A DNA stretch of 64,000 bases. Source: Bisporella sp. PMI_857. Lineage: Eukaryota; Ascomycota; Leotiomycetes; Helotiales; Helotiaceae. Positions 1-61,887 of this stretch are shown one piece after another. The DNA lies in NCBI GenBank assembly GCA_021307315.1, contig JAJSPD010000007.1, positions 620,001-684,000 on the forward strand, in the 5' to 3' direction. The translations under genes and the position numbers were made by a program. The notes under the pieces are model-generated. The model did not search any database. It saw only the letters and a list, made by a program, of their open reading frames with translations, and had not been told where the DNA came from. Numbering within the stretch: the first letter of the stretch is position 1; every line of letters begins with the position of its first letter.

Positions 1-899
1 CAGCAGTGCGGGAATCACCGTTATTGACGCAGGGCAGTTAATTTATAAAGCTGTCAATGATGATAAGATTTCTACATGAGGCAGGCTATCTTCTCAATAC
101 CCTTTTTGTTTCACAGCATTTTCATTCCCCTGCTGACCGAAATCAAGACATTTAGGCCATTTGAAGATTTGAAGGTGTCTGCATGGCTGTCCAACTTCCT
201 TCTCGGTCAATAAGCTCGATAAAACTTTTAGATAAACACACAATGATCAGGATTACTATGACCTACACTCAACGCTACCGAATATGATCGATGGATGCTG
301 TTCTATCACCAGTTTGACCACGAGCCACCACGATACGAAAGAGACTCTGTTTGGGCTTACTATTTGCGGGCATCGCAGCGCTTGAAGGTTGGCAGACATG
401 TCAAAGTATCTCCCTTATACACTGGAAACATTGCTTTCAACTCCACCGCAGAACCCTCGCGAAAGATGACACCGGTTGTAGTTTATTTATTATGACAGGC
501 GTCCTAGTCCGTGCTGCAATCAACATGAGCTACTATCATGAACCTTCTCGAACAACCTCCACTGGACAGATGTAAGAAGAGCTGCGACACCATGTATAGC
601 TCGTTATTGACAGTAAGGACAGCCTGACCTCTTTTACCGTTATGTTCCTTAGCGCATTGCAAAGCAGCTATTCAAAGACGTTGGAACCACAAAATATCCA
701 TGAATAAGAGACGTTTACCGATCTTTTGGCCTTTTCTCTTTCAAGACTCATAGATGAGATAGCGCCAGTTAGATATCGTTGCGAAAAGACGTCTAGTGCA
801 ACTCAACCCGTGTATCACACCCTGTCAAGGTCCAAGCCGAACCTCGATCAGGTAATCATCCCTTGACCTCGTACGGAATAGGTTAAATGTTCTTTATAC

Positions 900-934
<35 letters not shown>

Positions 935-3398
935 CTTTCTCTTTCTCTTTCTCTTTCCTATATCAATCAATTACATCCCTCTTGAATCCAGACCTTACAT
1001 CTGCACCAGCAGTTCTAGCTTAACAGTATATGTTTCATAGCAAACCTAATTCAACACTTCAAGCTTTATTACCTACTGGTACGATATCGGGCCTGCAAAG
1101 CAGTTTTCACCCTTGCTGCTATGGCTCTCTCCCTTAACCTGGAACCTATGCGTAAAAACACACATACCGATGTAAGTCCGAATTTTGACTCCTTCCAGGC
1201 GCACTCCAGATCTTTTGTGCAATAAGGGGAGAGGCAAAGGATACTTCTAATGAATCTAGGGGGATACACTAAATCTTAAGTATAATGTTTGTAAGCTTTG
1301 CAAGGACTAGTAGCTCGGCAGTACCAAAGCCAGAAATAGCAGCTAACCAGGAAAATTCACGGCCCCGACAGGCCGTCCTATTTGAGGGAGAAGCTATACC
1401 TTGATTAGTTTTTTACCCTTGTTACCCTTGTCCGGGTGCCTTCACGTTAATATTTCAACAAGCTATATGGGAATCATTTACGGGGGGAGCAGATTTTGAA
1501 GAAGTATACTAAGGAATAAATTTTAACCACTATGAATTCGAAGCTCCATTCTCATAAATTGCACAAAGTCCTTGATAGAGAAAGGATGTTCCTCCGCCTG
1601 ATCTGCTCTTAATACATTATGAAATAATTGGCAAACTGAGACAGATACATTATGACAGCATTTATCGGATCAAATAATTGTCTTCCAAAATAAACTTTAG
1701 GTGATGGTGGAACATATTGAGTCACACTGGAGCTTGGCAGGATGAGTAAACAGATTACAAGTTAAACTTAGAGAGTTTTGATAAAATAGAGTACCAAGCA
1801 ATAATTCAGATCTTACACACACTTAAATTTTAACTCTTTGCAAGGGCCGATCTAGCATTCCGGGTTGGCATTCCTCGTAGACAAAACACACCTAGAACCT
1901 TCGAACGGAGTAGGCTATTGATGAAGATTACTTGAACAGAATCATGGCAATCAGCTTCACGTATGGTTCAATATCAAGAAATGTTTACTTTCAAGATAAT
2001 AATATATAAGATTCATCACAAGCACAGGGGATTGAAAACCCCTACGTCAGTTGATCACAAACAGGAATAGAAAGAGTCGATAGCGTCGTACAAATAAGCC
2101 CTAACAAGACAAAACTGCCCCCGATATAGAAAGTTCCTTTAATCTTCGTAATTTCACTGTCCGCAAGATCATATTGTACTACCTGCGCTCGCAGCACAGG
2201 AAGTAGCAACTTGCTCATTAATACCTCTCCTAAGCATTTCTAGCGGTTATCCCCTAAGAATTTCCAACACTGTCATCGACATCTTTAATACCTAGAAATT
2301 AGTTTCCGTAAAACAGGTATTTGGTTGCAGATTAAGCAACTTACCTGGGATAGCCAATGCAGCTACAAAAGTTGCACAGGCGGGGATGATAGGGAGGTAT
2401 TGGAAACACATGATGATTTATTGATGAAGCATCTATACGAGGGATTTTATGAATTGGTGGAGCAGAACCCTTTTTCTTTTCTTGGAGAATGAGTGAAAGT
2501 TCTGGAGGCGAGATTTTGATCTGTAGGAGAAGGATTGAGGATTGAAGTAGAGATATGTAGGCTGTGGATCTTTTCAGAAGGGTTACAGTGCCAGGTATGA
2601 TAGGTGAGTTCTGGGCATGGCGAAGACGACAGGAGCTTCTGGATTGGATAGATTTGCTCTTTGGAGACGAATTTGAACGTCGTGGTGCATTCAACCAGTT
2701 GGGCCACGAGAACTAGGATTAAGACGAGGCGCGCTACTGAGCTTTAGTGTTAAGATACCCATAAGTTCACTCAATTGAGATGCTCCTGATTAGGTTAAGA
2801 ATGAGATCTAGAGTAGGATAAGGCTGAAGCTGCAATGCAAGATTTTGCATAGGCATCATGCGAGGAAAACTTACTACGAGCATTTCCTCTATATACAGGT
2901 GCTCACACATTGACGATTTCAGTTACACAGCTTTTGAATCTAAATCTTGGTTCTCGTACGACCATCCTAATCAATCTTTCAGTACGTATATCCCGATAAA
3001 ATGATCAAATTGTAGAACTGTCGTGATTTTCTCGCTTAAAAAGGAATCCAATGCTGCACAAATGCCACAACAATAACACACTAATTCTTATGAAATAGCT
3101 CCCACACTTATGTGCCAGCACCCCAGTTAGAGAATCCATGTGCTGGACAATAGAAAAGATTTTCACTACCTTGTTCCCTTCCTGTCTGATCTAGTATAGA
3201 CAAATCGCTCATGTCCAGCATTCTGAACCGGGCCCACCTATCACAACGTGGCCAGTTCACGCATTCATGATCACTCTACACCCTAGAAAACGGTTTATTT
3301 TGAGCCCACTCAAAAGTTGCAAATGACATGTCTCCTCTGCACATCACTGCCTTCCTCCAATACTCAAGACAGCGATCTAATTTAAAACTTAGCATTGT
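1..3398. other. gene-poor region, no recognisable gene
   Basis: Both strands carry only short open frames (under about 120 codons) with no family signature that I can recognise. The stretch is AT-rich with frequent stops and holds a CT-rich microsatellite near 900-958. It could contain heavily eroded genes; I see no support for an intact one. Confidence 0.6.
899..958. repeat. CT-rich microsatellite
   Basis: An uninterrupted (CT)n run grades into TTTC/TTTCTC repeats over about 60 bp. It is simple-sequence DNA with no coding context. Confidence 0.9.
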
Positions 3399-3406
3399 TT
3401 TTGAAC

Positions 3407-3849
3407 CAGTGAACGAGTTAGTATCGTAGTATTTAGTAATATCGAGTCTCGAGACATATAAGGTCGACCTTTTGATACTACGCTAGTATTAGTATGAGAT
3501 TCTCGTAAAGCGCTAGTTTAGTATGGAAATTGAATCTTATATCATATTAGCAATAATACTAAATACTGTGCTATGGCCACTTTGGGGCTTTTTTACAAGG
3601 GTCTGAAATAAACTCTACCCTTTTTAGTACAAATAACCGAATTAAAAAAGCTAAAACCCTTGTTGTATTGCTAATTTAGGAATAGCGTCATTTAGAGTTA
3701 GTGTTGTAGTATATCGCGGTATAGTATAATATAATATGAGATTGCAAATTTTGCTGTAATACGTATACAAATTTCAAATCTCATATTGCGTGGTATATAG
3801 TATTGATTTTTAGCGGTCGATATATCACGATAATACTAACTCGCTCACT
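3407..3849. mobile_element. hAT-type MITE with 8-bp target duplication
   Basis: The left end reads CAGTGAACGAGTTAGTAT and the right end, reverse-complemented, reads CAGTGAGCGAGTTAGTAT, so the terminal inverted repeat is near perfect. The element is flanked on both sides by the identical octamer TTTTGAAC (3399-3406 and 3850-3857). Ends starting CAGTG and an 8-bp duplication are typical of hAT transposons. At 443 bp with no transposase frame it is a non-autonomous miniature element. The interior is AT-rich and full of repeated GTAGTAT/ATACTAC-like words in both orientations, suggesting a largely self-complementary body. Confidence 0.9.
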
Positions 3850-4024
3850 GTTTTGAACCCATCTATTGAACGGCGAGTCGTGTACTTATATGTGCCTTCT
3901 CTTTTCTCAAATCATCTGCAGTCATATTTGGATAATAATAGTCAAGATGGAGAGACCTTCTAATACGTTTCTAAACGCTCGTCAGCATAAGTTGAAGACT
4001 TAAAAAGAGGAAGAAGCTCACTAC

Positions 4025-4500
4025 ACAGTATAATTCGTGATACGTTGCTATTTCAGCCATGAGGCCAGAACCACCAGCAAGTGCAATCGATTTCCATCGA
4101 TGGTATTGAGTTCCTCCGCCGTAATTTTGATAACTAAAGCCGGAATTCGTTTTAGCCTCTGCTCATCATATCTAACTTATTGTCACGGAGAAGTGGGTCC
4201 GCACGTGCTCATGAGCGTGCTCCCCACTCTCCTAGGCTATAAGAGCCTACCTGGCTTGACCTCTAGTTCTACAAGTAAGAATACACACATGCCGCATAAG
4301 TTTCTCTAGCTCTCGCAGGACGTACGAGCTGCTCCGTGACATTATCGGTCGTATACGTTCAATCAAAGCTGACCATGCTTCGTCAAACTCTGGCCGTGGG
4401 TCACCAGTGTACGGGTTGTTATTCAGGTCCCGCCACAGTCGAGGTTTCTGATATTGAATCGCAGTTCTCCCAGGAGCTGAAGAATTTCGGTAAACCTGCA
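4025..4500 (-). pseudogene. UstYa-like (DUF3328) protein, decayed
   Basis: On the minus strand the frame near 4370-4460 reads RLWRDLNNNPYTGDPRPEFD followed by EAWSALIE, which resembles the start of the UstYa/DUF3328 domain. Further on, in other frames, come KITAEELNTID and then ATYHELYCV at about 4025-4045, matching the position of the second HxxHC motif of the family with the last His changed to Tyr. The pieces lie in the expected order but need frame changes, so no intact protein is possible. UstYa-type proteins act in ribosomally made cyclic peptide and other fungal metabolite pathways. Assignment is by motif pattern only; the N-terminal membrane segment is not clearly visible. Confidence 0.5.
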
Positions 4501-4739
4501 AACTAAAACAGAATAGTCCTGAACGCGTATTCAATGAGTTGTGGCCGAACACCTTCGGGTGACAGAGCTGTTCTCCATAACCATACAAGAATGAGATTTG
4601 AAGATAACAACGAAATGTAAATAATATATGAAGCAGTGGAGAGAGGCCGAGAAAGTAGGATCTTCTCTTCAGCTGGGATGTCCAGTCTCCGGGCTTAGTA
4701 TACATTGTGTTACCCACTATGCCTCTACCCACTTAATGT

Positions 4740-5773
4740 AGATAAAAAAGGAGGTCGATAGATGCTATACAGAAGAAATATTTGGGCGTAATAATCGAGA
4801 ATGAGGTGATCACTGTCTGACACTGACTTTAGAGATACTTTGCTCTTCTCGTTATAGAAGGTAACAACAGTGGATGCCTCATGCAGTGTAGTTTGAATAC
4901 CGCCAATGGGGAATTCTATCAACATACCTATAGCACACTAGCATTTTATTTCACTGTGATTGCTGTTGCAGACTCTTGGTATCGTTCTCGGTCGAAACCT
5001 GACACTTTCAAGGCTTTGCGTCAACCAATGACAAAGTTCTTCAAATCAAGCAACGAGGTCGCCGGTAAGGTCTTCGCAACTCTGAATTCGGTCTAAATTT
5101 AAAAAGATCACTTCGGCCATTATGGCCAATCGAAGCTGGGCTGAAGGATGATCGTAACGTTTTGACATGAAGCCTCGTCTTTACCCCGAAGACAAGATTG
5201 AACAAGATTTTGGCCGTATCATCAATACCTACACATGTCCCTGGTTCTCTCTGCATCAAATAAGGCATTAAAACAGGAGTTGTATGATAGGTGACATTGC
5301 TGCGTTATGCTGGACCCTATTTATGAGATCTTTCGTACAGGTACTACCTGTATTTTGAAGTTCACCTGCTCAGCCCTATACTACCCTGCTCGTGGATCCC
5401 ACCCCACTTTACCCTTCCCGAACCCACCAATAACCTTGGTCCCTAGCTTAGAGCCCCGGAAGCCACTTAAGACACCCCTAAAGTGAACCTGACGACACAA
5501 ACCCACTTCAGCCACTGTTGCGCTGCCACCATGAAGCTATTCCCAAATCTTAACCAAGTATATATGGGCCTTCGCGTATAAGGTATCAAGGACTGAAAAT
5601 TGGCTAAGGACAATAAATCTAAAGAACTATAGTACTTGGTTGCGATTTCTCAAGCCATGCTACACATCTGAAGTCAAAAGCTAGCAAAGAGGCTAACTAG
5701 AGATATCCTTTGATGATGGATATACGCATACCATTTCTAGATCTGGCTTAGAGCTATTATCTTCCATACCGTC
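4740..5773. other. intergenic, nothing recognised
   Basis: Short frames on both strands (for example 4881-5096 on + and 5041-5268 on -) show no family signature. The stretch lies between two eroded genes and may contain further remnants too degraded to name. Confidence 0.5.
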
Positions 5774-6340
5774 CTAAGTGTCCAAAGTTTCCCTAATGGA
5801 GGCCTCCCTTATTATCATAGCTGCCGCCAAACCGAGTTGAGCAAACGTCATGCCAACCTCCCAGACAAGCTTCAAGCTCGCTTCGAAGGCAGCAATGACT
5901 TGCTCCTTAACGACGCCCTGCAGCGATCCTACAAATTGCTTTGAGGCATGTTCATATGCGCTATCGGCCCTCAGATTCTTCTTCACTAGAACATCCCCAA
6001 TGCTTGGGGACATCTCTGAATCTCGACTTAAATATGGATGTCTGTAAAGCCATGCCACAAATGAACCCCAACGCCTAGGTAAAGCCCCATATGCCTGTTA
6101 AAGCGGCAGCGTCCAGCCCTGGCAATGGTGTTTGTATTGCGGTGAGAGTTGACGAAATTACAAGACCTCCCCCAGAGGCAAAAACTAGCTGGAGAATGAC
6201 CCATAGAGCTATTGAAAAATTATGGCTTAGAACGCTAAAACAGCCGATGCAGATACCTGACAGGGCAAAGCCAGCAATTTGGTTGGACTTATATCTCATT
6301 TTGGCGGCAGTTAAGAAGGTCTGTTTCTAATCTAGTGCGA
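5774..6340 (-). pseudogene. 3' fragment of a DHA2-type MFS exporter
   Basis: Two minus-strand frames carry the last part of a 14-TM multidrug-type transporter. 6299-6075 encodes segments such as QLVFASGGGLVISSTLTAIQ followed by TPLPGLDAAALTGIWGF, matching the conserved 'GSGLVIS..LPAVQAPL...D.A.ATG.W.F' region. 6058-5774 carries the C-terminal SLKLVWEVGMTFAQLGLAAA. A stop codon directly after IWGF and a later frame change separate the parts. The N-terminal two thirds is absent; sequence further upstream belongs to a different (DHA1) transporter. Such exporters often sit in metabolite clusters. Confidence 0.75.
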
Positions 6341-6419
6341 AGATAATGCAAACTTGCTACAATGCCTCAACCTTTTGCCATATTTATAAAATACATACCT
6401 GCTATAACATTAGTAAGGA

Positions 6420-8620
6420 AGTAAATAACGCCTTTTTAGACTTTCAAACTTACGGGAAAGGAGCCATCACGAGAGAAAGAAGGGCAAGCAGCGTAGTTGC
6501 CCATTGATATCCCAACGTATTATACACTTGAGGCACTCATAAGCGAGATAACAACAGAATGGGAAGTTAAACACTGACTCTGTATACCAAATAAGGGGAA
6601 GGCTGTCGCGAACAGACTTCTAGAGAAGCTGTTTGCTGCGAGATCACTTGCAGCGTATTGAGGGCTGTAGATAAATTAACCTTTTCGGAGAATGCGAGGA
6701 CAAGGAAAGATTTGTAAGGTTCAAGGAGCCGAGACTTTGAATGAGGCCAAAATAGCCTGGTTGCAGATACAGGAGTTCTAAAAAGATATATCTCTAGGCT
6801 GTACTCTTTCAAAATATACCTCCCAACTTTTTCATAAGTATCAAAATGAAATATGGCTTACTATGCATGCACTAGAAAGGTAAAACCCCCTGAGAACACC
6901 AGGGTCATCCCAAAGCTAAACAAACTTGATTCAATGACTGGGACTATCAAGTGAATCGAAGACAACCTGTTGAATATTTAAAATTCTGTAGGAACAACAT
7001 CTGGACATCTGTAACTTACTGTGTCCATCCAAACAAAAACAGTCCAACTGTTCCAAAAGGAGCCCATATAACAGCACTTTGAAAGAGTGAGCTTGTGGCA
7101 ATCAGGGGTTATGCGGTTTCGCTCTCATGGTGAAAGGACAATTAGAATACAATTTTCACCACTACACTGGGTTTAGACTATAAAGAAATAAGGTACTATA
7201 TCAGACTAACGACAGTAACCTAAACTCCGGCTCTGACTCTGGTAGCCCTTCCCCTTCGTTTTTACATTTCTCCACCAGCCGCAAATAATTTCTAGGCCAC
7301 ATTGGACGAGGCTATGGCGGCGAGCATTCCTACCCCGATTCCAAGGAATGAGAGCCCGACTTGGTAGAGTGAAAACCCATGATTATTCTTGAATATTGTG
7401 GCAAAAGCACCAAAGAAGAGGTAAAGAATACCTAACAGCTAAAATGGGGCTAGCGCTACTGCCAATCGACAGTTGAGTACTACGAACCAACACCGAATAA
7501 ACACAGACTCAGACACATTGGCTCTAGCATAAGAAGCGTAAGCGGTCGATAAAAAGACCTTATAACGGTCTACAATTATGTTAGTTACGTCCCTAAAACA
7601 TCTCACCCAAGTTCAGTTTTACCATTAAAATAGAACGGCTCAATTTATCAATATTGGCATGCCACCTCTCATCTCCTGTCTTTCTCCGCATCCTTCGCGC
7701 CTTGTTCCTCAGAAGCACCGGATGGTAGGTCTCAGGAACGATAAATAAGATCAAGAGCACTTGGAAACCACTCCAGATAAGGATAGTCCAGAAAGACCAG
7801 CGCCTGGATTGGTCAGCTCCACTCACAGCTACCCGCAAAATGGCCCATCGTGAAACTTACCAGCCTGTGAATTAATTAATGAATCCTCCTAGAACAGGTC
7901 CTAGTACTGGGTCACTGTTGTAAGTTAGCTGCTTTGTGCCTAACAAATAGGTTCCCCAGTGAATAAACTTACAGAAAAAGTGCCGAGTAGAAAATTAACA
8001 TAGGAGCTTATAGTGACATTTTATCATATCTTCTACAGTACCACCAGCTACTGTGAGAAATGCAGCGCCTGCAAATCCACCGAAGAACCGAGAAATGAGT
8101 CCAGTTTCGACATTTTTGGCGACTGCACAAGGCACTTGCCAGATAGTAAAGAGTAGCATTGAAATGATGTATATCGGCTTCCTACTCCAAACTCAGCATA
8201 TTGTCTTAAGGCAAAAAAATAAATAAAAGTAAGGCAAGCCGCTTTGCATTGAGTATCTCTTTTCGTCACTTAGAAAGCACATATCCTTACTCACCTTCCA
8301 TAAATTTCGCTCAGCGGTCCCAAGAACAAACTCAACCCTAAAGTCGCCATAATACGTGAGCAACTAACATCTCTTTGGAGCTGCTTGTAGGCGCTTGTGT
8401 ATAGAGAACCCGCACACGTTACACACAAGGCGCTTGAAGATGCTGAAACAATCAGCCATTTCCACCAGACCGGGAAGTTGCGGGAGAAGGCCGGGTCTGA
8501 CGGGCCATCCCAACCAACTTCATATACTGCTTCAAAAGTAGTTTTTTTTTTTTTTTTTTTTTTTTTTTGGTTGCCATCTTGTGATGTAGGGAACTTTATT
8601 TTGCCGTTCGAGTTAGACAT
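6420..8620 (-). pseudogene. DHA1-type MFS transporter, decayed
   Basis: Successive minus-strand pieces align in order to a 12-TM drug:H+ antiporter: the N-terminus with WWKWLIVSASSSALCVTCAG, then LGPLSEIYGR, a spliceable intron (about 8215-8290), KPIYIISMLLFTIWQVPCAV, RFFGGFAGAAFLTVAGGTVE, RRWSFWTILIWSG, PETYHPVLLRNKARR, LLGILYLFFGAFATI, and near 6470-6640 ANSFSRSLFATAFPLFG with YQWATTLLALLSLVMAPFP. Stops and frame changes interrupt several membrane helices (after DMIKCHYKLLC, around 7870, and inside the central loop), and about nine residues are missing before LGPLSE. A 27-T tract lies in the N-terminal coding part and would encode a lysine run. It cannot make a working transporter as it stands. 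Confidence 0.8.
8542..8568. repeat. 27-T homopolymer
   Basis: A perfect run of 27 T on the plus strand, read as lysine codons in the N-terminus of the decayed DHA1 transporter. Such runs are slippage-prone and also error-prone in sequencing. Confidence 0.9.
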
Positions 8621-9136
8621 TCAGGCGCTCTTTCTCACAAGTTGATTGAACTTTGTGTAAGCTGCGTATTGGGGCTACAGCTTGTATTATATATAGACTA
8701 GGATGGTTGAAAGAGGAGGTGCAATAGCAAGTGGCAAAGGTTGGGTTATGTGTCACAATCCCATGCAGGAGTTATAATAAGAGTTTCGGGCTTACAAATT
8801 ATTTGTAACAAAGTCGAATATTTTATAACCTTGCAACCTCTTTTGATCTCTGTATGAAGTAGTAAAATCTTACTGTTTTTAAGGATTTGTAGAGAGTTGA
8901 AAAGGGGGGGGGGGTTAAGGAGATCTAAAGCTATATTCGTAACAATTAAATTATAAAGAAAAATTATAAAATAATACTAGGTTAATTATATATTGAAAAA
9001 CTTAATACGTTTGATATAGTGCCCTTATATTAGCCCAATTCAATATAAAATATGGCCAAAGTAGCAACAGAAAAAATTATTATTCAATTCCTACCCCAGC
9101 TGAACTATTTCAGCTAACTAATTTTCAATCACTTAC
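8621..9136. other. intergenic between two minus-strand pseudogenes
   Basis: AT-rich DNA with an 11-G run near 8904-8914. No gene or clear regulatory structure is seen. Confidence 0.6.
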
Positions 9137-10292
9137 CTACTCAAGCTTCTCGTTTGGTAAAACCAGCACGCCTCGATATCTCATCTTTCCCTCTTTTAAC
9201 ACACCAAAGGCCTTCTCAACACCCTCCCGATCCATCCTAAACTTATGTACTTTCGGCTTGACAGCATTCTTAGCCGCAAAGTCTAGCATGCGTCCGTGCA
9301 CACCTCTTGGTGCCAATACACTTCCTGAATCGTAATGCCATTGAGCAACAGCGGCATGCTGGGAGAGGGAAGGCGCCCGGGCCGATGGTGAGCGGGAAGG
9401 CCTTGGCTCTGGGAGCAAGCGGAGGCAGGCAGACTCTCCAATCTGGCAGCACAGTGGCGGCGGTTATGAGAACATCTAGGCTGCCGGCGAGCTTGAGGTC
9501 CTTGGCGGTTTCCATGGTATGGTAGGCGCTTGCGCCGAAAGCGAGGGCGTCGGATTCTTTTGAGGCGGTGTTAGAGAATGCTGTTACTTCGCAGCCGAGC
9601 TTCGACGCAAACTGAGGGGGGCGGTCATGTCAGCATAGAGCTTGTTAGGCCGGATCCTTGTTCATCCTCATCTGTATAGCCAAGTGATCCAATCCACCAA
9701 TACCGAGAACACCGACCCGATCTATAGACTTAACACCATATGTATCAAGAACATTGAAGACAGTTGCACCAGCACACATAAGTGGTGCTACTTCCTCATT
9801 GGAGAGCTCCTTGGGGATTGTGAAGAGCCGAGCTTCCTTGTTAATCGTACCGTACGCTACACTTCCCTGATCGAGATCTGCTCGGCCGTAGATCTTATGC
9901 TCCGGGCAAGAGTTATCGGTCTTCCCCGTGCATTGCGGGCAGTGGCCACCGGTGTCCTGGAGAAAGCCCCATCCTACGCGATCACCCTTCTTGAAGGCGA
10001 TGATATCGGGGCCAGTGGCGGCCACGACGCCGATACCTTCGTGGCCTAGAACCATCTGGAGTCATGAGTTAGCATATCTAAGTTACGCTGGATTCAAAAA
10101 GGCGAAGAGACGTGCATCATTGTCCCGGAAGAGAAGATCCCTACCACAAAGTCTAGACGCAGTGACAGCGACGAGGACATGGTCACCGGTTAAGGCTGGA
10201 CGAGTCGTCTGGGACTGAATGATCTCGCCTTTGGAGCCCCTAAAGGTTGTGAAGGTAATGTTATTAGGGGAAGTTATCTTGTAAGATCGCAA
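9137..10292 (-). pseudogene. zinc-type alcohol dehydrogenase (MDR family), decayed
   Basis: Exon 1 (from ATG at 10292) carries the GroES-like N-terminus with SRLCGRDLLFRDNDA. A good intron (branch GCTAAC, acceptor CAG) joins it to VLGHEGIGVVAATG and KKGDRVGWGFLQ, followed by a Cys cluster (CPQC..C..C) and the nucleotide-binding GVLGIGGLDHLAIQ. The next intron (9612-9671) has an excellent 3' end but starts AT instead of GT, so LAIQ can no longer be joined to FASKLGCEVTAF. Two one-base frame changes follow near 9300-9390: PLTIGPGAFPLP, then PLLLNGITIQ, then SVLAPRGVHGRMLDFAA are in three different frames. The C-terminus (KFRMDREGVEKAFGVLKEGK...) is well kept. Family identity is clear; substrate is unknown. 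Recent decay is likely because most residues are still conserved. Confidence 0.8.
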
Positions 10293-11033
10293 GGATGCTG
10301 TTGTGTTTATTTTTGGTTGTTGCGAGGAAAGTTGGTTAATTTTATACTACTGGACTTGGATGGAGCTCCCAGAGGAGTTGCAATATGGAAGTGAATCATG
10401 GATAGCACCAAAAGCAAAGTACGAACGCACAACTATGCTTTTTTTTGCAAACAACTTGTTGGTTTTACACACCCCAGCTTTGTCTGGCTTGCAAAAGCGT
10501 TAGTATTAATATTGTGACAAATACTGCCTTAAAGCCATCTGCCAAGCTTTGTGTTTTCACTCCGGCATGTACCGCCTGCAGTTTACAATTTGGGGGTGGC
10601 GCACGGCAATCTGGGAGGTGTCATGTAGTATTCCCCGATATGTAAGTAGTCTGTGTTCGTTTTGCTAAAGCAGCAACCTTAATGGCATGTTGATTGCAGC
10701 AGTAATGCTGATACTACTGTAGCAACTTTTCCTATAGCCTAAATTATGGTGGGGGGAGAGGAGGATGTAACATAGTAACTCGGTTTTATACTTTTGGCAA
10801 GGGATGCACTTCTGACTCTTCGCCGCTGACAAACACTACACCAACCTCCCCCCCTTTTCTGCAGATTATAATTTAGCTTATTGGGAAAGTTTGGCGAGGT
10901 AACTTTACAACACTGTAGCTGTAAGAATAATCCATTTAAAATTTTGCGTACTTGCTCTTTGTATCTTGCATAAAACGTTCTATGTAGCAGACCAACTTGG
11001 CCATAGTCCAAATAACTCCCAGAGATCAGCACT
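10293..11033. other. intergenic, nothing recognised
   Basis: Separates the minus-strand dehydrogenase pseudogene from the plus-strand PLP-enzyme pseudogene, so it was probably their shared promoter. Short frames on both strands show no known motif. Confidence 0.5.
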
Positions 11034-12424
11034 ATGGCCAACCAATTATCTTATAGGGGCAATGCCAATGTGAGCAAAATTATGCCTAAGATCCCGCAAA
11101 GAATCCTCTCAGCCGGTTGGGTCCTCGACTCCGACTCCGCCATCGACCTCTCTATGGCCGAGAACTGGTTGATCCTAATGAGATCTTGGATATCCATAAA
11201 AAACTATAACTTTAAACTCTGAAGTACAATATTCAAAATTCCCTCTACAGAAGTTGGGACTGACCATGCACTGAAGCATCTGGACTTTCCGAAAGGGTTC
11301 TGGGGAGATCCAGAATTACTAAGGAGCCTGGCAGGGGTTTTCAATAAGTCATTCAATCCATGGAAGCCTGTCCTTGCTGCGTATATTGCGGTGGCTCCGG
11401 GAGCAGGCGGTTGTATTGATGCTTTACTATTTAATATATGTGATGCCCACGATGGAGTTTTGGTTTCAGGTCCTTATTGGAGTGAGTGTGAAGCTCACTC
11501 ACCAAAAAAAAATTGGACCGACGTACTGAGAGATATTATTAGATGGGTATAACACATTCACTCGTTTTCGCGCCGACGTGGTGCGGTAATGGTGCCAACC
11601 CCAAACCTTGAAGACCCAGCTTCATTCATTAGCGAGTTCGAAAGCACTCTCCAAGCAGCACCATATCCTATCAAAGCGTTAGGCGTGTCTAAAGTTTTGT
11701 CAGGAAAACAAGCTCCATCTCATCTCAGACGAAGTTTTCGGACCATTGACTTTTGAGTCACCTGATCTTCTTAATGAGCAGCGCTTTGCGTCTGTTTTGG
11801 AGCTAGATTGTGAGACACTGTGCTGTGATCCTTCCCGTGTTCATATGATCTGGAGTCCAAGCAAAGTCTTTGCGCTCAGTGGTGTGCGATTAGTACGTTC
11901 AAATATGAGTTTAAATCTGACTAAGCTATATGTACATAAGTTCCCCAACTAATCCTTTCCTCTAGGGCTGTACGGTCACTCAAGCAAACCAAGAACTTCA
12001 CAATGACCTATCCCTGGCTTCATTCACAACCGTCTCCATCCTCTATTCCCTCCTAACAACCGGACTCCTTAAGTCCCCTAGACTGGACGACCTCCTGGCC
12101 GTCAGCTCCCAGCGCCATCGCCAATTCTACATTGTCCTCACTACCTGGTTAAAGAAGTTGGGATTACCTTATCTACCGTGCAATGCAGCGCCATTCTTAA
12201 TGGCTAAGATTGTACCCAACGCCAGCTCATGGGAGGACGAAGCCACTGTCGTGCATGCACTTAAGGAAGTCGACAATTGGGTTAGTTTCGGTCGGAGCCA
12301 GCACATGCCGGAGTATGCTAAGCGGTTGGCGAGATTGACATTTACAATTGAGCGTGCGAAGCTTGACACGGCATTGGCGAGGATAGAGCCTACATTATTG
12401 CGAATGATGAAGGTGGGAGTTTGA
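11034..12424 (+). pseudogene. ACC-synthase-like PLP enzyme (aminotransferase I/II), decayed
   Basis: Pieces in several frames follow the order of fungal 1-aminocyclopropane-1-carboxylate-synthase-like proteins: SYRGNANVSKIMPKIPQRIL, DLSMAENWLI, LDFPKGFWGDPELLRSLAGV, APGAGGCIDALLFNICDAHD, VSGPYWSE, then HLISDEVFGPLTFESPDLL (PLP-ring Asp), DPSRVHMIWSPSK (candidate Schiff-base Lys), a normal intron (about 11890-11966) and GCTVTQANQEL through ERAKLDTALARIEP. The NP(H)NPLG segment is deleted between IKALG and the HLISDEV block, and stops separate several pieces. Relatives act as aminotransferases or C-S lyases, including in sulfur-containing fungal metabolite pathways; the reaction here cannot be told. 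Confidence 0.75.
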
Positions 12425-12529
12425 AAGGGGCTTCCATGGCCTTTTTTTACTTTGTTTGGAACATTATATATATATTTCTGTCCCGAATATAAACCTTGTT
12501 ATATTGCAAAGTTCTAGAAACTTTTTCCG

Positions 12530-12739
12530 ATGTCTAGGGCTGCATATGTAAGCTGGCACGGAGCAACTAATATAAAAGCATGGAAAGTTTACGAAGGCGA
12601 AAGAGACGGAGCTTTAGGCTATGTAAATAGTGTGCATTCTAAAGGTGAGACCAAATTCATTGTTGGCAGTCCAGTTATACAGGTTTCTGCTGTTCTGGCT
12701 GATGGAAAGGAGCATAGGTCAGAAATTTTTGTGGCTTGA
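12530..12739 (+). pseudogene. C-terminal remnant of an arylsulfotransferase-like protein
   Basis: The 69-codon frame contains AAYVSWHGATNIKAWKVYEG and ends with VIQVSAVLADGKEHRSEIFV. This resembles the last segment of fungal ASST (arylsulfotransferase) proteins, usually 'YVSWNGAT.I..W.VY.G' followed by 'VQV.ALD..G'. The rest of the roughly 500-residue family is missing, so it is a fragment. Assignment rests on one short block. Confidence 0.5.
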
Positions 12740-13598
12740 TTTTTTAAGGTTAAAGGCTCACGGACAAGATATTCTATTTAAACTGCCGAAGAACGGCCAA
12801 TAGCAAACCTTTTGCATGGTACACTATTAAAGACTAATCTTGGCGCCTCTAATTCTTTTCCACTAGTTGAAGTAGTGTATGTCTTCAGACAGGCGGAGGG
12901 ATTGCTTATTGCAATTTTACATACCATGCATTCCAACAAAAAGACCGCCTTGTGCCACCATTGGTATCGAAAGGTCTCCATTAAGTGATTTTACATCGTA
13001 CAGCGGAATATTATCCTCGCTTTTGAACATCTCCCTCATGTCCTCAGCTGCCGCCTCGGCTACTTCCTTAGCTCAGCCACAAGCGAAACGAAAGGACAGG
13101 CTGGTTACTCTCCTGGAGCCATATCACGAGTTCTGGGATCAAAGGGGAGAGAGCTTGAAGGTAGAAGAGGATGGTGTATTCAGCAGGGGTTGGGTGACAA
13201 TGTTGGCGGTAATTGAAAAGTGATTGATGCTAGGTAGAGGAGATTGTGAGTTTGATCTACCCTATTAGTAAATCCACGAACCATTGTCCTTTTTGTTTTG
13301 GGGGTTATTGCCCGTTGTTGATGACCGCTGTTGATGGGATCTCTTTTATGATGGAAGACAAAAGTTTAGCGGATGACCCCACCATCTTTGGCGCGGAGGC
13401 TAGGTGCATTGGAAGGCTGAATTTGTCTTGGTGATGAGATATAAATTGCGAGAAGATGCCAGTAGGATCAAATCGACAACTCAACCAACATCCAGTACAG
13501 GAATCAGTTCAAACATCAAAGCTTGAAATCATGAACATAAAAATTAATATTTTTTTCTCCTTGGGTATCTCTGAAGCACACAAACGCCATGAGGCAAA
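12740..13598. other. intergenic, short unassigned frames
   Basis: A 114-codon plus-strand frame (12879-13223) contains VTLLEPYHEFWDQRGESLKV, which I do not recognise. It has no partner exon or homology clue, so I do not call it a gene. The pot1 3' end lies immediately to the right. Confidence 0.4.
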
Positions 13599-15930
13599 TC
13601 ACACAATGTTCACTCCAAATAAGCCGAATCTCCTCTCCCATCGCTTTCCCTTCCCATCATTTCCATTCCCGGCTGTGGCTTTGGATGGATCTGGCTCATC
13701 GACCTTTACGCCGTATTGCTTTATGCAACAAGCGAACGGCTTATTCTTCACGGGGGGATGATACACATCTATCTTATTGACTGTCCATCCTGCGTTTAAG
13801 GAGCGCTCTTCAAGAGATTTTAAGGCAGGAATATTATCCTCATCATCGCTGTTAATGTTTGGTTGTGCTCCGGGCCTTATCATTGGTGAAGAAGCGGGTT
13901 CCTCAGAGAATGAGGAGGGCACAACTTGCTGTTTTTGCATCAGAGCAGATTTCTGCTCCTCAAGGTCGCCCCATAGTATGCATAAGCGCTCCTTTAGCTC
14001 CGCGAGCAAAGAGGGATTAGTTCGAAGACTAGCTGAGTCAATTTGAGGGTCAAAAAATGCCTTGAAATATACGTACTTCTCAGCATCTATATCGAGTAGC
14101 CCTTGCCCAGAGAGATTGTCGACAACTAACCACATTCGCTCCTTAGGCAGCTGGCTATCACTGTCCTCAACTTCTAGAGCGAATCTCCATTCCCACTTCT
14201 TCACCCCGAAGCCTTTTCCGGCTTTGAAGATGCGCATATCTTCTTCTCGATTTGTGCCTTCGCCTTCACTGTGATCCGATAACATATCATATTCCGTGAC
14301 TCGCCGTCCGACAGCAAAATCTACTATTTTGTGCGGAAAATATCCTACAACACGGACGTTGGCTCGATACTTGTTGTTGACAAACGGCAAGACGATCACC
14401 TGATCTGAGTTGGGCAGAATGTACTCTTGTGGTTTCGTGATCTGCGCGATTCGCAAAGCAGCTTTGTCTAAATAGCTGCATTTCACTATGCTTGTGGTTA
14501 GTATTTCCAAAAGTTCATAAAAGTTCAAACTCACCATGTTCATTCAGATCAGGTCTCACTTGTGGTGCAGCTTCAACTGGCTTTTGAAGCGCAGCTCCTG
14601 CGGCTATAAGTTGTCCAGCCTCCCGTCTTTTTTTTCGACGCTTCTTAGAATTAGACTTTTCCTCCACGGGCTCTTCAATTGCTCTTCGCTTTTTAGTCGA
14701 GTCTAACTCCTCCGTGTCTTTTAGATATTTCGCCTTCTGCTCATTGAACTTCTTCCAATAATCACGTTTTCGGGCAACAGTAGCTTTCCATCGCTCGTCA
14801 TTCTCACGAGGATCTTCAGACATCTGCATGGTCTCTACGTTGACCTTCTCGCCCTCGCCATACAATACCCCCTCCAAGCAACCACCAATTTTGGCATGCT
14901 TGATTCGCACATTTTTTAGTCGCAACCATTCATGAATCTTGACATGTTCGCGAACGAAGAGGCCATGGGCATCAAATAGAGTAAGCTGAATCGTCTGTTT
15001 TCCATAAGGGCCTGGCCAAGTGTTTGTATCATTATTTTTGGCCTTTTTCTGCAGATACCCATATTCATCTCCATCTCGTCCCCCAGTAGATGCATCATCC
15101 TTCCATGAGTAGTCATAGAATGATGGATTGGTCGTGTAATCAGTTATGTAAACAGTAACGCCGATACCACCATCGAAGACTCGTATCACTTCTCCGATGA
15201 TCGTATAGAAGCAATCTGGCTTTACATCTTTAAGAAGACTGAATTTGTCTTTTACTTTCAGCGCCCGGCAAGCCTTGATACGGAAGTCATCAGCTGTGGG
15301 AAGTTCTTCTCCCTCGTCAAGGTCTTTTCTGGTTTGCACTACATAGGACAACTCCAAGGACCCAGGTTTTTTTGCTACAGCTGGATAAGAGTTCCAGTCT
15401 TGCTCGTGGCTGGGGGGATCAGCCAGAGATTGAGGGATATGAGATGCTGCCAAGATGTGAAATTCTGTATGATGGTTTGCCAACAAAGAAACTTGACCGG
15501 ACCATAATTGACACTACAGATCATATGAGCCAAGATTCACAAGGCAAGACTGAGACTGAACCGACCTTGACTGTCCGTATCACTACCGCATCGAATAGTC
15601 CAGATATCTGGGGCATTTTCGTCTCAGGCCAGAGTATGTGGACTTTCAAACCATACTTTTCATACTTGATTGAATTGTCCTTTATCTCCATTGTGCATTT
15701 GAAATCTGAGATGGTCAGCATTTTCGATTGACCTTTTAGACTAGGAGGAGCAAGCTACCAGGTCCCCTAGTTTGGACGGGGGGTTGAAAGTCCGTGATTA
15801 ATCCAATGATGTTGATGAACACCTTCCCCAGCTTTTCGTTGGGAAGCTCTTTAACTTGTTCAATTGTCATGAAGCCAGTTGGTAAAACTGGGTCCGCCAT
15901 CGCCGGCGCTGTGGAAGTGCTCTTCGCCAT
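13599..15930 (-). CDS. pot1: telomere end-binding protein Pot1
   Basis: Four exons: 15930-15759, 15705-15566, 15513-14535 and 14485-13599, giving 725 residues; introns are 49-53 bp with GT-AG ends. The N-terminal OB fold (Telo_bind, about residues 20-150) contains KVFINIIGLITDFQPPVQTR, DFKCTMEIKDNSIKYEKYG, KVHILWPETKMPQISG and, across the third exon join, CQLWSGQVSLLANHHTEFH. A second single-stranded-DNA-binding region follows (DFRIKACRALKVKDKFSLL, CFYTIIGEVIRVFDGGIGVT and YGKQTIQLTLFDAHGLFVRE). Between it and the C-terminal half is a Lys/Arg-rich linker (KKRRKKRREAG). Pot1 caps the telomeric 3' overhang and controls telomerase access in the nucleus. The gene is divergent from importin alpha with 418 bp between the start codons. 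All exons are open and in phase, so it appears functional. Confidence 0.93.
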
Positions 15931-16074
15931 GGTATTTTGGAGTCTATGGCAAGTGCTTGACTTTCATAGCACCGAATGATACACTCATTTGGGGTTCAAT
16001 GACATGAGATATATCCTGTTTCAATGAGCCAAATGCTTGTCACAGAAAATGTAGTGTACCGATGATTTAAGGAG

Positions 16075-59275: not shown

Positions 59276-61887
59276 ATGGGTATTCAGAAGAAACATGGGA
59301 AAGGTCGTCTTGACAAGTGGTACAAGTTGGCCAAAGAAAAGGGATACCGTGCCAGAGCTGCCTTCAAGTTGATTCAGTTGAACAAGAAGTATGGTTTCTT
59401 GGAGAAGAGCAAAGTTCTGCTGGATCTTTGCGCTGCGCCAGGAGTACGTCGCTCTTTTGGCATCATGGTACTTCTGCTAATGCATCGCAGTCATGGTCTC
59501 AAGTAGCCGCCGAGACTATGCCGCCGAGCAGTCTCATTGTTGGTGTGGATCTTGCTCCCATAAAACCAATTCCGCGAGTTATTACATTTCAAAGCGATAT
59601 CACCACCGACAAATGCCGAGCAACACTTAGACAGCATCTTAAAACTTGGAAGGCAGATACGGTTCTGCACGATGGCGCGCCTAATGTTGGTACTGCCTGG
59701 GTACAGGATTCTTTCAACCAAGCAGAATTGGCGCACAAGTCAATGGTTCTAGCTACTGAGTTTCTTGCAGAAGGGGGAACATTTGTTACAAAAGTATTCC
59801 GATCGAAGGATTATAACAGTCTGCTATGGGTCTTCAATCAGCTTTTCACCAAAGTCGAAGCCACAAAGCCTCCATCTTCGAGAAACGTTTCCGCAGAGAT
59901 TTTCGTTGTATGCAGAGGTTTCAAAGCGCCCAAGCGGATTGACCCTAGATTTCTCGACCCCAAGGCTGTCTTTGCAGAACTATCAGACCCGACTCCTAAT
60001 AATGAAGCCAAAGTATTCAATCCAGAGATCAAGAAGCGCAAAAGAGATGGTTACGAAGAGGGAAACTACACCCAGTTCAAGGAGGTTCCAGCAAGTACAT
60101 TTATAACAACAACGGACCCAATCGAGATTTTAGGACAGATGAGCCGTTTGGGCTTCAAGCAAGAAGCCAATGGAGATATTGCCCTGGCAGCTCTGGACAT
60201 GATGCCAGAAACCACACAGGAGATCCGAGATAGCTGTAATGACATCCGGGTACTTGGAAGGAAAGAATTTAAGAATCTGTTAAAATGGCGTCTGAAGGTA
60301 CGAGAAAAGTTAGGGTTCCCATCCAAGAAGAATCTGAAGGAGGCAGCAGAGGCAGCGGAAGAGGTTGCTGAGATAGAGCCTATGGACGAAGAGCTCAGGA
60401 TCCAGGAGGAGCTGCAGGCGATGACTGAGAAGGCAAGTGGCCAGAGGAAACGCGAACGAAGGAGGGAGAATGAGAAGAAGCAGAAAGAGATTGTCCGGAT
60501 GCAGCTCCACATGACAGCACCGACAGATATAGGAATGGAACAAGCAGGACCAAATGGAGATGGTGCGATGTTCGGTTTGAAAGCGATCGACAAGTCTGGT
60601 GCTGTGGACAAGATTGCGAAAGGGAAAATGGCTATTCTCACCGAAGCAGACTACAAGAACCGAGATGCCGAATCAGAGTCTGAGGAGGACAGTGATCCTG
60701 AAGAAGATCGGCTTGATAGAGAGATGGACTCTATGTATGCGCAGTACCAGGAGCGAAAGTCAGAATCAGACGCCAAGTACCGGGCGAAAAAGTCACGGAA
60801 AGAGCATGAGGATGGAGAATGGGAAGGATTCTCGGAAGATGGTCATGGTAGTGATGATGATGACAGGCTTGATGAAGACAGCAGCGACGAATCATCAGAC
60901 GACGAAGCACCGACCAATCGTAGTCTTCTAACGAAGCTAGAGCAAGATGAGAAGAAGAACGGAGGACTTTCAAAGCGAGCAGCCCAGTTCTTCGATCAGG
61001 ATATTTTCAAGGACATCGGTGGCATCCCGGAAGAAGAGCCTGAATCTGAGGCTGAAGACGATGAAGATGAAGAGATCTCCGCGGACTTGAGCCGATTAGT
61101 CACCCTCAGACCAGATGTTGCGCAAAGGGAATCCGATTCTGACATCCCAGAAGAGGTATCGCAGTTTGACAATAGTTCCGGAGACGAAGACGAAGACGAA
61201 GACGGGTTCGAGGTCGTGAAGCGCACAGCCGAAGAAACAGCATGGGAAGACGAAGTACCTCTGAAAGACGGAAGACCTGGTAAGCCTAAATACATGCAAT
61301 TTCTAGTTCGGCCCACGGACTAACGCACAACAGACATCGACATCATAACCGCCGAAGCCATGACGCTCGCGCAATCCATCGCATCAGGCCAAACGACGAC
61401 ACACGACTTGATAGACCAATCCTTCAACAAGTACGCTTTCAAGGACCGCGACGGGCTGCCGGACTGGTTCCTCGACGATGAGGCCCGGCACGACAAGCCG
61501 CACCGGCCCATCAGCGCTGCAGGCGCCGCGGCCATCAAGGAGAAGCTGCGCGCGCTCAATGCGCGACCGATCAAAAAGGTGCGCGAGGCGAAGGATCGGA
61601 AGAAGTTCCATGCCGCACAACGGCTCGAGAAGCTGCGCAAGAAGTCGGCGCTGCTTGCCGACGAAGAAGGCATGACCGAGAAGGAGAAGGCGCAGTCCAT
61701 CATCAAACTTATGGGGAAGGCCGCGAAGAAGAAGCCGAAGCAGCAGGTGAAGGTCGTGGTGGCTAGGGGGGGAAACCGAGGGATTGCTGGTCGGCCCAGG
61801 GGCGTCAAGGGGAAGTATAAGATTGTGGATGCACGGTTGAAGAAGGATGTCAGGGCCGAGAAAAGAGTTGCTAAGAAGAAGAAATAG
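59276..61887 (+). CDS. spb1: rRNA 2'-O-methyltransferase Spb1
   Basis: Three exons, 59276-59443, 59491-61279 and 61334-61887, 836 residues. The N-terminal FtsJ/RrmJ domain has [38 protein letters not shown] (SAM loop, about 47-64), [17 protein letters not shown] and [19 protein letters not shown], with the K-D-K-E residues of 2'-O-methyltransferases. A long acidic linker ([36 protein letters not shown]) follows, and the C-terminal SPB1_C domain starts [15 protein letters not shown] and ends in Lys/Arg-rich sequence. The GTAAGC...AACAG intron at 61280-61333 is required: without it the protein stops at 61323 and loses that domain. Spb1 modifies the A-loop of 25S rRNA in the nucleolus for 60S assembly. 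Confidence 0.95.

Follow-up and report, generated by a model that had tools for sequence, protein, structure and literature searches.

Remnants of a probable small metabolite gene cluster in the fungus Bisporella sp. PMI_857

Six gene remnants and two transposable elements

A 64-kb stretch of the genome of Bisporella sp. PMI_857 (Helotiales), a plant-associated strain that is not known to be pathogenic, corresponding to positions 620001–684000 of contig C252 and here called the window, was found to carry six gene remnants that lie between an intradiol-dioxygenase gene, to the left and outside the window, and a POT1 gene at 13.6 kb. The group spans 3228–12739 (about 9.5 kb), and four of its families are encoded on the same strand. 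Three remnants, namely a DHA1-type exporter, a zinc alcohol dehydrogenase (ADH) and a pyridoxal phosphate (PLP) enzyme resembling 1-aminocyclopropane-1-carboxylate (ACC) synthase, are near full length and their introns can still be read. Two are tails only, one from an exporter of the major facilitator superfamily (MFS) and the other from a weakly supported arylsulfotransferase, and the sixth is a UstYa-like gene carrying two miniature inverted-repeat transposable elements (MITEs). With a probability of about 0.7, we take the group to be what is left of a single small cluster of metabolite genes in this helotialean fungus. The initial annotation had listed six decayed genes side by side, which holds for the families and lesions, while two of the six proved to be tails and the arylsulfotransferase is weak.

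Pfam scans were made on 20 separated pieces, and on 28 pieces of window 1–13580 altogether, in a selection of the frames. The three long genes were aligned to intact homologous proteins using a purpose-built spliced protein-to-DNA aligner, which allows GT (GC penalised) and AG intron ends, frameshifts, stops and gaps. The alignment scores were 1212 for the PLP enzyme, 1252 for the ADH and 1334 for the DHA1 exporter, against maxima of 58, 49 and 80 from 15 dinucleotide shuffles each.

The UstYa-like pseudogene (3228–4498, minus strand) gave two Pfam matches over the cut-off of 25 bits, at 4247–4732 on the minus strand (27.1 bits, E 4.6e-6) and at 3276–3482 (32.1 bits). A search of the whole genome with the PF11807 profile placed three stretches here, with profile positions 48–105 at 4310–4486, 111–167 at 3884–4102 and 149–218 at 3228–3431. 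The last scored 51 bits and extends the group beyond the left edge of 4025 drawn in the initial annotation. The three stretches are probably parts of a single gene running from about 4498 to 3228, in pieces at 4310–4498, about 3851–4102 and 3228–3406, two neighbouring UstYa relics being a slight possibility. Two HxxHC motifs define the UstYa family; when the frames are read piecewise, each of them has lost at least one histidine here, and the gene is accordingly best described as a relic of PF11807, not a working member. The genome as a whole gave 75 UstYa-family matches, some of them grouped (C275:57–69 kb and C101:663–675 kb); many of these stretches contain internal stops, for which introns could account.

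Both MITEs lie inside this gene, and not next to the cluster as had been stated for the first of them. Short terminal inverted repeats (TIRs; CAGTGA(A/G)CGAG), a perfect 8-bp target duplication (TTTTGAAC) and many copies characterise the element at 3407–3850 (444 bp) as a hAT-type MITE. It occurs at 39 other genomic places among 40 scored of 143 candidates, the closest scored copy being 97% identical, and among the scored candidates it is 94–97% identical to its 17 nearest copies. A GT near 3885 and an AG near 3377 bracket the element, and this span without the element and its duplication measures 57 bases; because such a GT..AG span is of ordinary intron size, the insertion apparently took place within an intron of the UstYa gene. 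The second MITE (4181–4341, 161 bp) has the TIR TGTCACGGAG with TTAT on either side, and was found at 39 other genomic places among 40 scored of 50 candidates. A flank match of about 5 bp was present in several of the 7 copies for which both ends were found, out of 17 examined. As its own flank match is 4 bp (about 5 bp in several other copies) and its TIR is different, this second element is not hAT-like.

The MFS exporter tail (6021–6326, minus strand) had no Pfam match of its own. It shares 46% identity with a stretch of the same genome on C207 (E 1.5e-14), and its part 6272–6021 is 38% identical over 84 residues to a paralogue on C46 that itself matches MFS_1 (E 2.6e-36). The tail looks DHA2-like, a subclass name that we assume. 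The N-terminal part of the gene is absent, and the DHA1 exporter abuts at 6341.

The DHA1-type exporter pseudogene (6341–8605, minus strand) matched MFS_1 at 7995–8192 on the minus strand with 29 bits, below the curated cut-off. All five spliced alignments contained 10 introns with GT and AG ends and a 10-residue gap. Four of the homologues gave 3 frameshifts and 2 stops as lesions, and the fifth gave 4 and 1.

The zinc alcohol dehydrogenase pseudogene (9146–10256, minus strand) was detected by the ADH_N domain (PF08240; 9645–10061, minus strand, E 1.8e-11, over cut-off), ADH_zinc_N (PF00107) remaining below with 17.8 bits. It has 249 of 328 residues identical to homologue P0005, and two frameshifts with both homologues tried. 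Two intron positions lacked a GT donor; one has a GC donor, and the other is a 60-base stretch aligned as an insert and interpreted as an intron whose donor is non-canonical. Homologues at 51–56% identity, among the matches listed, are from Botryotinia globosa, Botrytis byssoidea, B. tulipae and Hymenoscyphus fraxineus. The relic is present in the public proteome as entry P0004, with 302 residues against 339–342 in three full homologues and partly out of frame. A search of a plasmid collection with an ADH piece returned bacterial dehydrogenases only, below 60% identity, and was uninformative. Two more zinc-dehydrogenase loci of the genome look broken, C57:778957 (3 frameshifts, 2 stops) and C135:58174 (2 and 2).

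The ACC-synthase-like PLP enzyme pseudogene (11034–12421, plus strand) gave two Aminotran_1_2 (PF00155) pieces of 17–18 bits, below cut-off, while its similarity to P0002 extends over the whole length, with 246 of 387 aligned residues identical. The better homologue revealed three introns bounded by GT and AG, which are 53, 61 and 73 bases long; four frameshifts and an 18-residue deletion were obtained with both homologues. The deletion removes NPxNPxG, the cofactor-binding motif of ACC-synthase-like fold-type I PLP enzymes, which both homologues and two aligned plant ACC synthases possess. The piece 11966–12424 is 100% identical to a protein listed for Bisporella sp. PMI_857. The public protein of this relic, P0001 (358 residues), omits the damaged stretch and lacks NPxNPxG. 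The best solved relatives of an intact homologue, P0003, are the plant ACC synthases 1iax and 1m4n of the PDB (E 1.2e-26); NPxNPxG and a lysine stretch are common to the three and the AEN motif is shared with 1iax only, whereas P0003 is fungal and distant. A protein search with the last 153 residues of the relic gave three matches at E <= 0.001, these being the relic, one unnamed protein and Botrytis galanthina BGAL_0480g00040; it missed both own-genome paralogues and is no census. The paralogue on C173 is about 40% identical to the window enzyme.

The probable arylsulfotransferase C-terminal tail (12518–12739, plus strand) aligned with a gene of the same genome carrying PF14269 (on C2; E 0.006) and with a solved chain named 'Sulfotransferase' (E 0.18). 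It had no Pfam match and is without the catalytic domain, as the remainder of the gene is missing, its 73 aligned residues lying beyond the PF14269 domain of the paralogue.

Decay and its age

The three long genes and the UstYa-like gene are dead, not intact. Every homologue tried left lesions, in five of five cases for the DHA1 exporter and in two of two for both the PLP enzyme and the ADH. As a control, the two own-genome PLP paralogues (C173 and C57) were aligned on their coding strand to both homologues, and showed no frameshifts, stops or long gaps at 36–45% identity; opposite-strand runs for C57, which scored at noise level (71 and 51), were excluded.

Conserved-site counts were obtained with the best 120 of 2171 homologues for the ADH and the best 120 of 608 for the DHA1 exporter, P0012 (see below) and length outliers being removed; the same sets define the conserved columns. 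In the ADH, 7 of the 73 columns conserved in at least 97% of 108 homologues differ, compared with 6 in the top homologue and 0.62 on average, and a conserved cysteine is among the altered columns. The DHA1 exporter differs at 12 of 110 columns conserved in at least 97% of 89 homologues (top homologue 5, mean 0.58), and at 27 of 185 with a 90% cut, where no homologue is as high.

That the genes might be intact and intron-rich, or broken only by errors of the assembly, is very improbable. It is true that some of the breaks are in fact canonically bounded introns, and that P0001 and P0004 stand in the database as ordinary proteins of the fungus. Yet P0001 skips the damage and the NPxNPxG motif with it, P0004 is short and partly out of the frame of its homologues, and the lesions persist with whichever homologue is used for the three long genes. 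Conserved-site erosion and MITEs are not attributable to sequencing errors, and the 18-residue deletion, the MITE insertions and the replaced motif residues make such errors unlikely. The damage had been described as mostly frameshifts, stops and small deletions; real lesions of this kind remain, but 10 breaks in the DHA1 gene and three in the PLP gene are introns. Public gene sets can hide losses of this sort, the PLP and ADH relics being listed as ordinary proteins spliced around the damage.

A killing of the genes by repeat-induced point mutation (RIP) leaking from the MITEs was weighed by means of dinucleotide indices. The UstYa/MITE stretch is RIP-like, with a substrate index of 0.98 and a product index of 1.07 (0.71 and 1.26 for the hAT-type MITE alone), and the DHA1 exporter is intermediate (product 1.05, substrate 1.17). 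The ADH, the PLP enzyme and the MFS tail, on the contrary, resemble the flanks (substrate 1.28–1.76, product 0.75–0.76), and the locus contains indels and long deletions, which RIP does not make. As a cause of the whole decay it is thus extremely improbable. For the ADH, the PLP enzyme and the MFS tail taken by themselves, RIP was rejected as unlikely on account of their flank-like indices.

Compared with five outgroups, the ADH stays inside the spread of five intact homologues for three outgroups and is the lowest by about 1 point for two. The PLP enzyme is 5–6 points behind its two homologues, having 158 of 398 residues identical to the C173 paralogue against 181 of 398 and 173 of 392. Change of about 10% of near-invariant residues would correspond to roughly 4–5% neutral divergence. 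This is of the same order as the 3–6% divergence of the hAT-type MITE and suggests that gene loss was fairly recent. The initial annotation had proposed a recent loss, and the decay is indeed young with respect to the divergence of the families, in agreement with both the substitution load and the MITE divergence.

One cluster or separate losses

Tailoring and transport genes are co-located within 3228–12739, comprising UstYa, two MFS exporters, the ADH, the PLP enzyme and the probable sulfotransferase, and a joint pathway of these is likely. The families suggest that the PLP enzyme (ACC-synthase/C-S-lyase type) would have acted on an amino acid or a cysteine conjugate, that the UstYa oxidase and the zinc dehydrogenase would have changed oxidation states, and that the sulfotransferase, if real, would have added sulfate. 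The small molecule so modified may have been amino-acid-derived or peptidic, its export being the presumed role of the two MFS pumps. Selection on the locus would then have ceased. The three long genes acquired frameshifts, stops, deletions and altered splice sites, two others shrank to tails, and the two unrelated MITEs inserted into UstYa, in an order of events that is conjectural.

The only neighbourhood seen in a relative is that of Botrytis tulipae P0012 (BTUL_0039g00290), a gene model that fuses a DHA1 pump end to an ADH. The pump part is 70–82% identical to the window DHA1 exporter in three pieces. By eye, the dehydrogenase of P0012 is without a stretch that its relatives have. Since pumps from other fungi equal or exceed this match to the window, P0012 indicates that a pump of the same subfamily stands next to the ADH, without proving it to be an orthologue.

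Several results weigh against a dead cluster at this locus. With regard to decay, 11 of 19 own-genome ADH-family loci also received at least one lesion call (2 of the 11 for a long insert only) and 8 received none; with identity of at least 0.45, three of five were clean and two looked broken. Lesion calls become noisier the more a gene has diverged, and at a 90% cut the ADH differs at 20 of 115 columns, with one of the 108 homologues as eroded. With regard to grouping, the 28 Pfam-scanned pieces (1–13580) yielded neither a backbone gene (nonribosomal peptide synthetase (NRPS), polyketide synthase or terpene cyclase) nor a precursor peptide or a pathway regulator, and the arylsulfotransferase identity of 12518–12739 is weak. 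The paralogues found in the genome are on separate contigs or widely spaced. In B. tulipae the order is reversed, with the pump first, whereas the ADH is first in the window. The DHA1 exporter belongs to a common subfamily with 608 matches, and the P0012 pump end, which is also shorter than others, falls outside the 15 best of 120 for the C-terminal part of the window exporter.

In an alternative explanation, which we consider unlikely although worth attention, unrelated dispensable genes were collected and lost singly in a gene-poor stretch between stable genes and never formed a joint pathway. No backbone gene was seen in the scanned pieces, two members are mere tails, the own-genome paralogues are scattered and homologue names brought out no conserved order in a relative, all of which such an origin would accommodate. 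The closest paralogues, among the matches listed, are on C178 for the ADH, C173 and C57 for the PLP enzyme, C219, C276 and C200 for the DHA1 exporter, C207 for the MFS tail and C2 for the arylsulfotransferase, and no sister cluster was found among them. Homologue names revealed one adjacency only, that of DHA1 and ADH in B. tulipae, and no link to the PLP enzyme (B. galanthina BGAL_0480g00040). Speaking for a single cluster instead, the decay states are similar across families, and the same ADH and DHA1 subfamilies are neighbours in B. tulipae. The six families are of the kind met in metabolite clusters. At least four own-genome loci are at least 50% identical to P0132 over a long stretch, and at least seven if short C-terminal pieces are included; the chance of adjacency to this ADH would be of the order of 0.1%, a rough figure based on a total of about 12,000 genes, or several percent if any MFS pump is accepted.

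The remnants are a clear case of a likely metabolite cluster on its way to disappearing, in which introns can still be read and one gene holds two different MITEs. The few close relatives of the PLP enzyme, found with its last 153 residues, show where an intact cluster may be sought.

The right flank begins with a POT1-like gene (13599–15963, minus strand; 5' limit approximate), which has open frames of 314 and 332 residues and matches PF16686 (POT1PC) at 14515–15513 with E 1.7e-38. The sharp start of the housekeeping region at 13.6 kb reported earlier is borne out, and ordinary open genes are found on both sides. On the left, an open intradiol-dioxygenase frame of 356 residues (PF00775) is located at C252:616931–617998. 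Window 1–3379 has no second genome copy, and five pieces of it gave no Pfam match at E 0.1. A DNA-level duplicate of 4025–12739 was not reported in the genome apart from the MITE at 4181–4341, and Rfam had no match at gathering scores anywhere in the window. At 59314–61323, a strong purine skew at 60–62 kb is explained in part by an overlapping open frame that is rich in lysine and acidic residues and looks like an FtsJ/Spb1 rRNA methyltransferase.

Comparison with known systems

Epithiodiketopiperazine clusters combine a GliI-type, ACC-synthase-like PLP enzyme with an MFS exporter, and an NRPS, a glutathione transferase and a methyltransferase accompany the PLP enzyme; they do not typically include ADH, UstYa or sulfotransferase. 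The likeness of the window remnants is limited to the PLP enzyme and the pump, general Pfam scans of the window pieces having given no match to NRPS, glutathione transferase, P450 or methyltransferase.

The locus of the paralogue on contig C173 (a contig of 12,994 bases) contains an MFS pump, an ABC transporter, the lesion-free ACC-synthase-like PLP enzyme, an O-methyltransferase and a YFAYGSNM-motif protein without a Pfam match. From its gene content it looks like an epithiodiketopiperazine-type cluster, and would be a better candidate for one than the window remnants. Its MFS pump had no tblastn match with the window exporters at E 0.01.

Ustiloxin-type ribosomal-peptide clusters bring a UstYa (DUF3328) oxidase together with an MFS exporter and a PLP enzyme, and in this respect the window remnants are alike. 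They differ in that a tandem-repeat search of window 1–14000 found no repeated ribosomal-peptide precursor, and in that their PLP enzyme is, as we take it, of the ACC-synthase and not of the ustiloxin class. Our literature search found no paper joining UstYa, 1-aminocyclopropane-1-carboxylate synthase and gene cluster. UstYa and arylsulfotransferase both occur in the available portion of PMC12142624, in separate gene lists.

A tentative, rather doubtful proposal is that the remnants represent an undescribed cluster type, in which an ACC-synthase/C-S-lyase-type PLP enzyme would be joined by UstYa, a sulfotransferase, a zinc dehydrogenase and a pair of pumps. Certain Botrytis species would still have it intact (B. 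galanthina for the PLP enzyme, B. tulipae for ADH and DHA1), and its product would be amino-acid-derived and possibly sulfur-bearing.

In the reference genome of Botrytis cinerea, likewise a helotialean fungus, the bikaverin cluster is reported in the portion available of PMC3538735 to be incomplete and not to function, whole versions of it occurring elsewhere. The likeness to the window remnants is that of an incomplete secondary-metabolite cluster in a helotialean fungus; unlike these remnants, the product and the intact cluster have been identified for bikaverin. The dead gene group described here is ordinary in kind, dead clusters being already known, and its mix of genes is uncommon.

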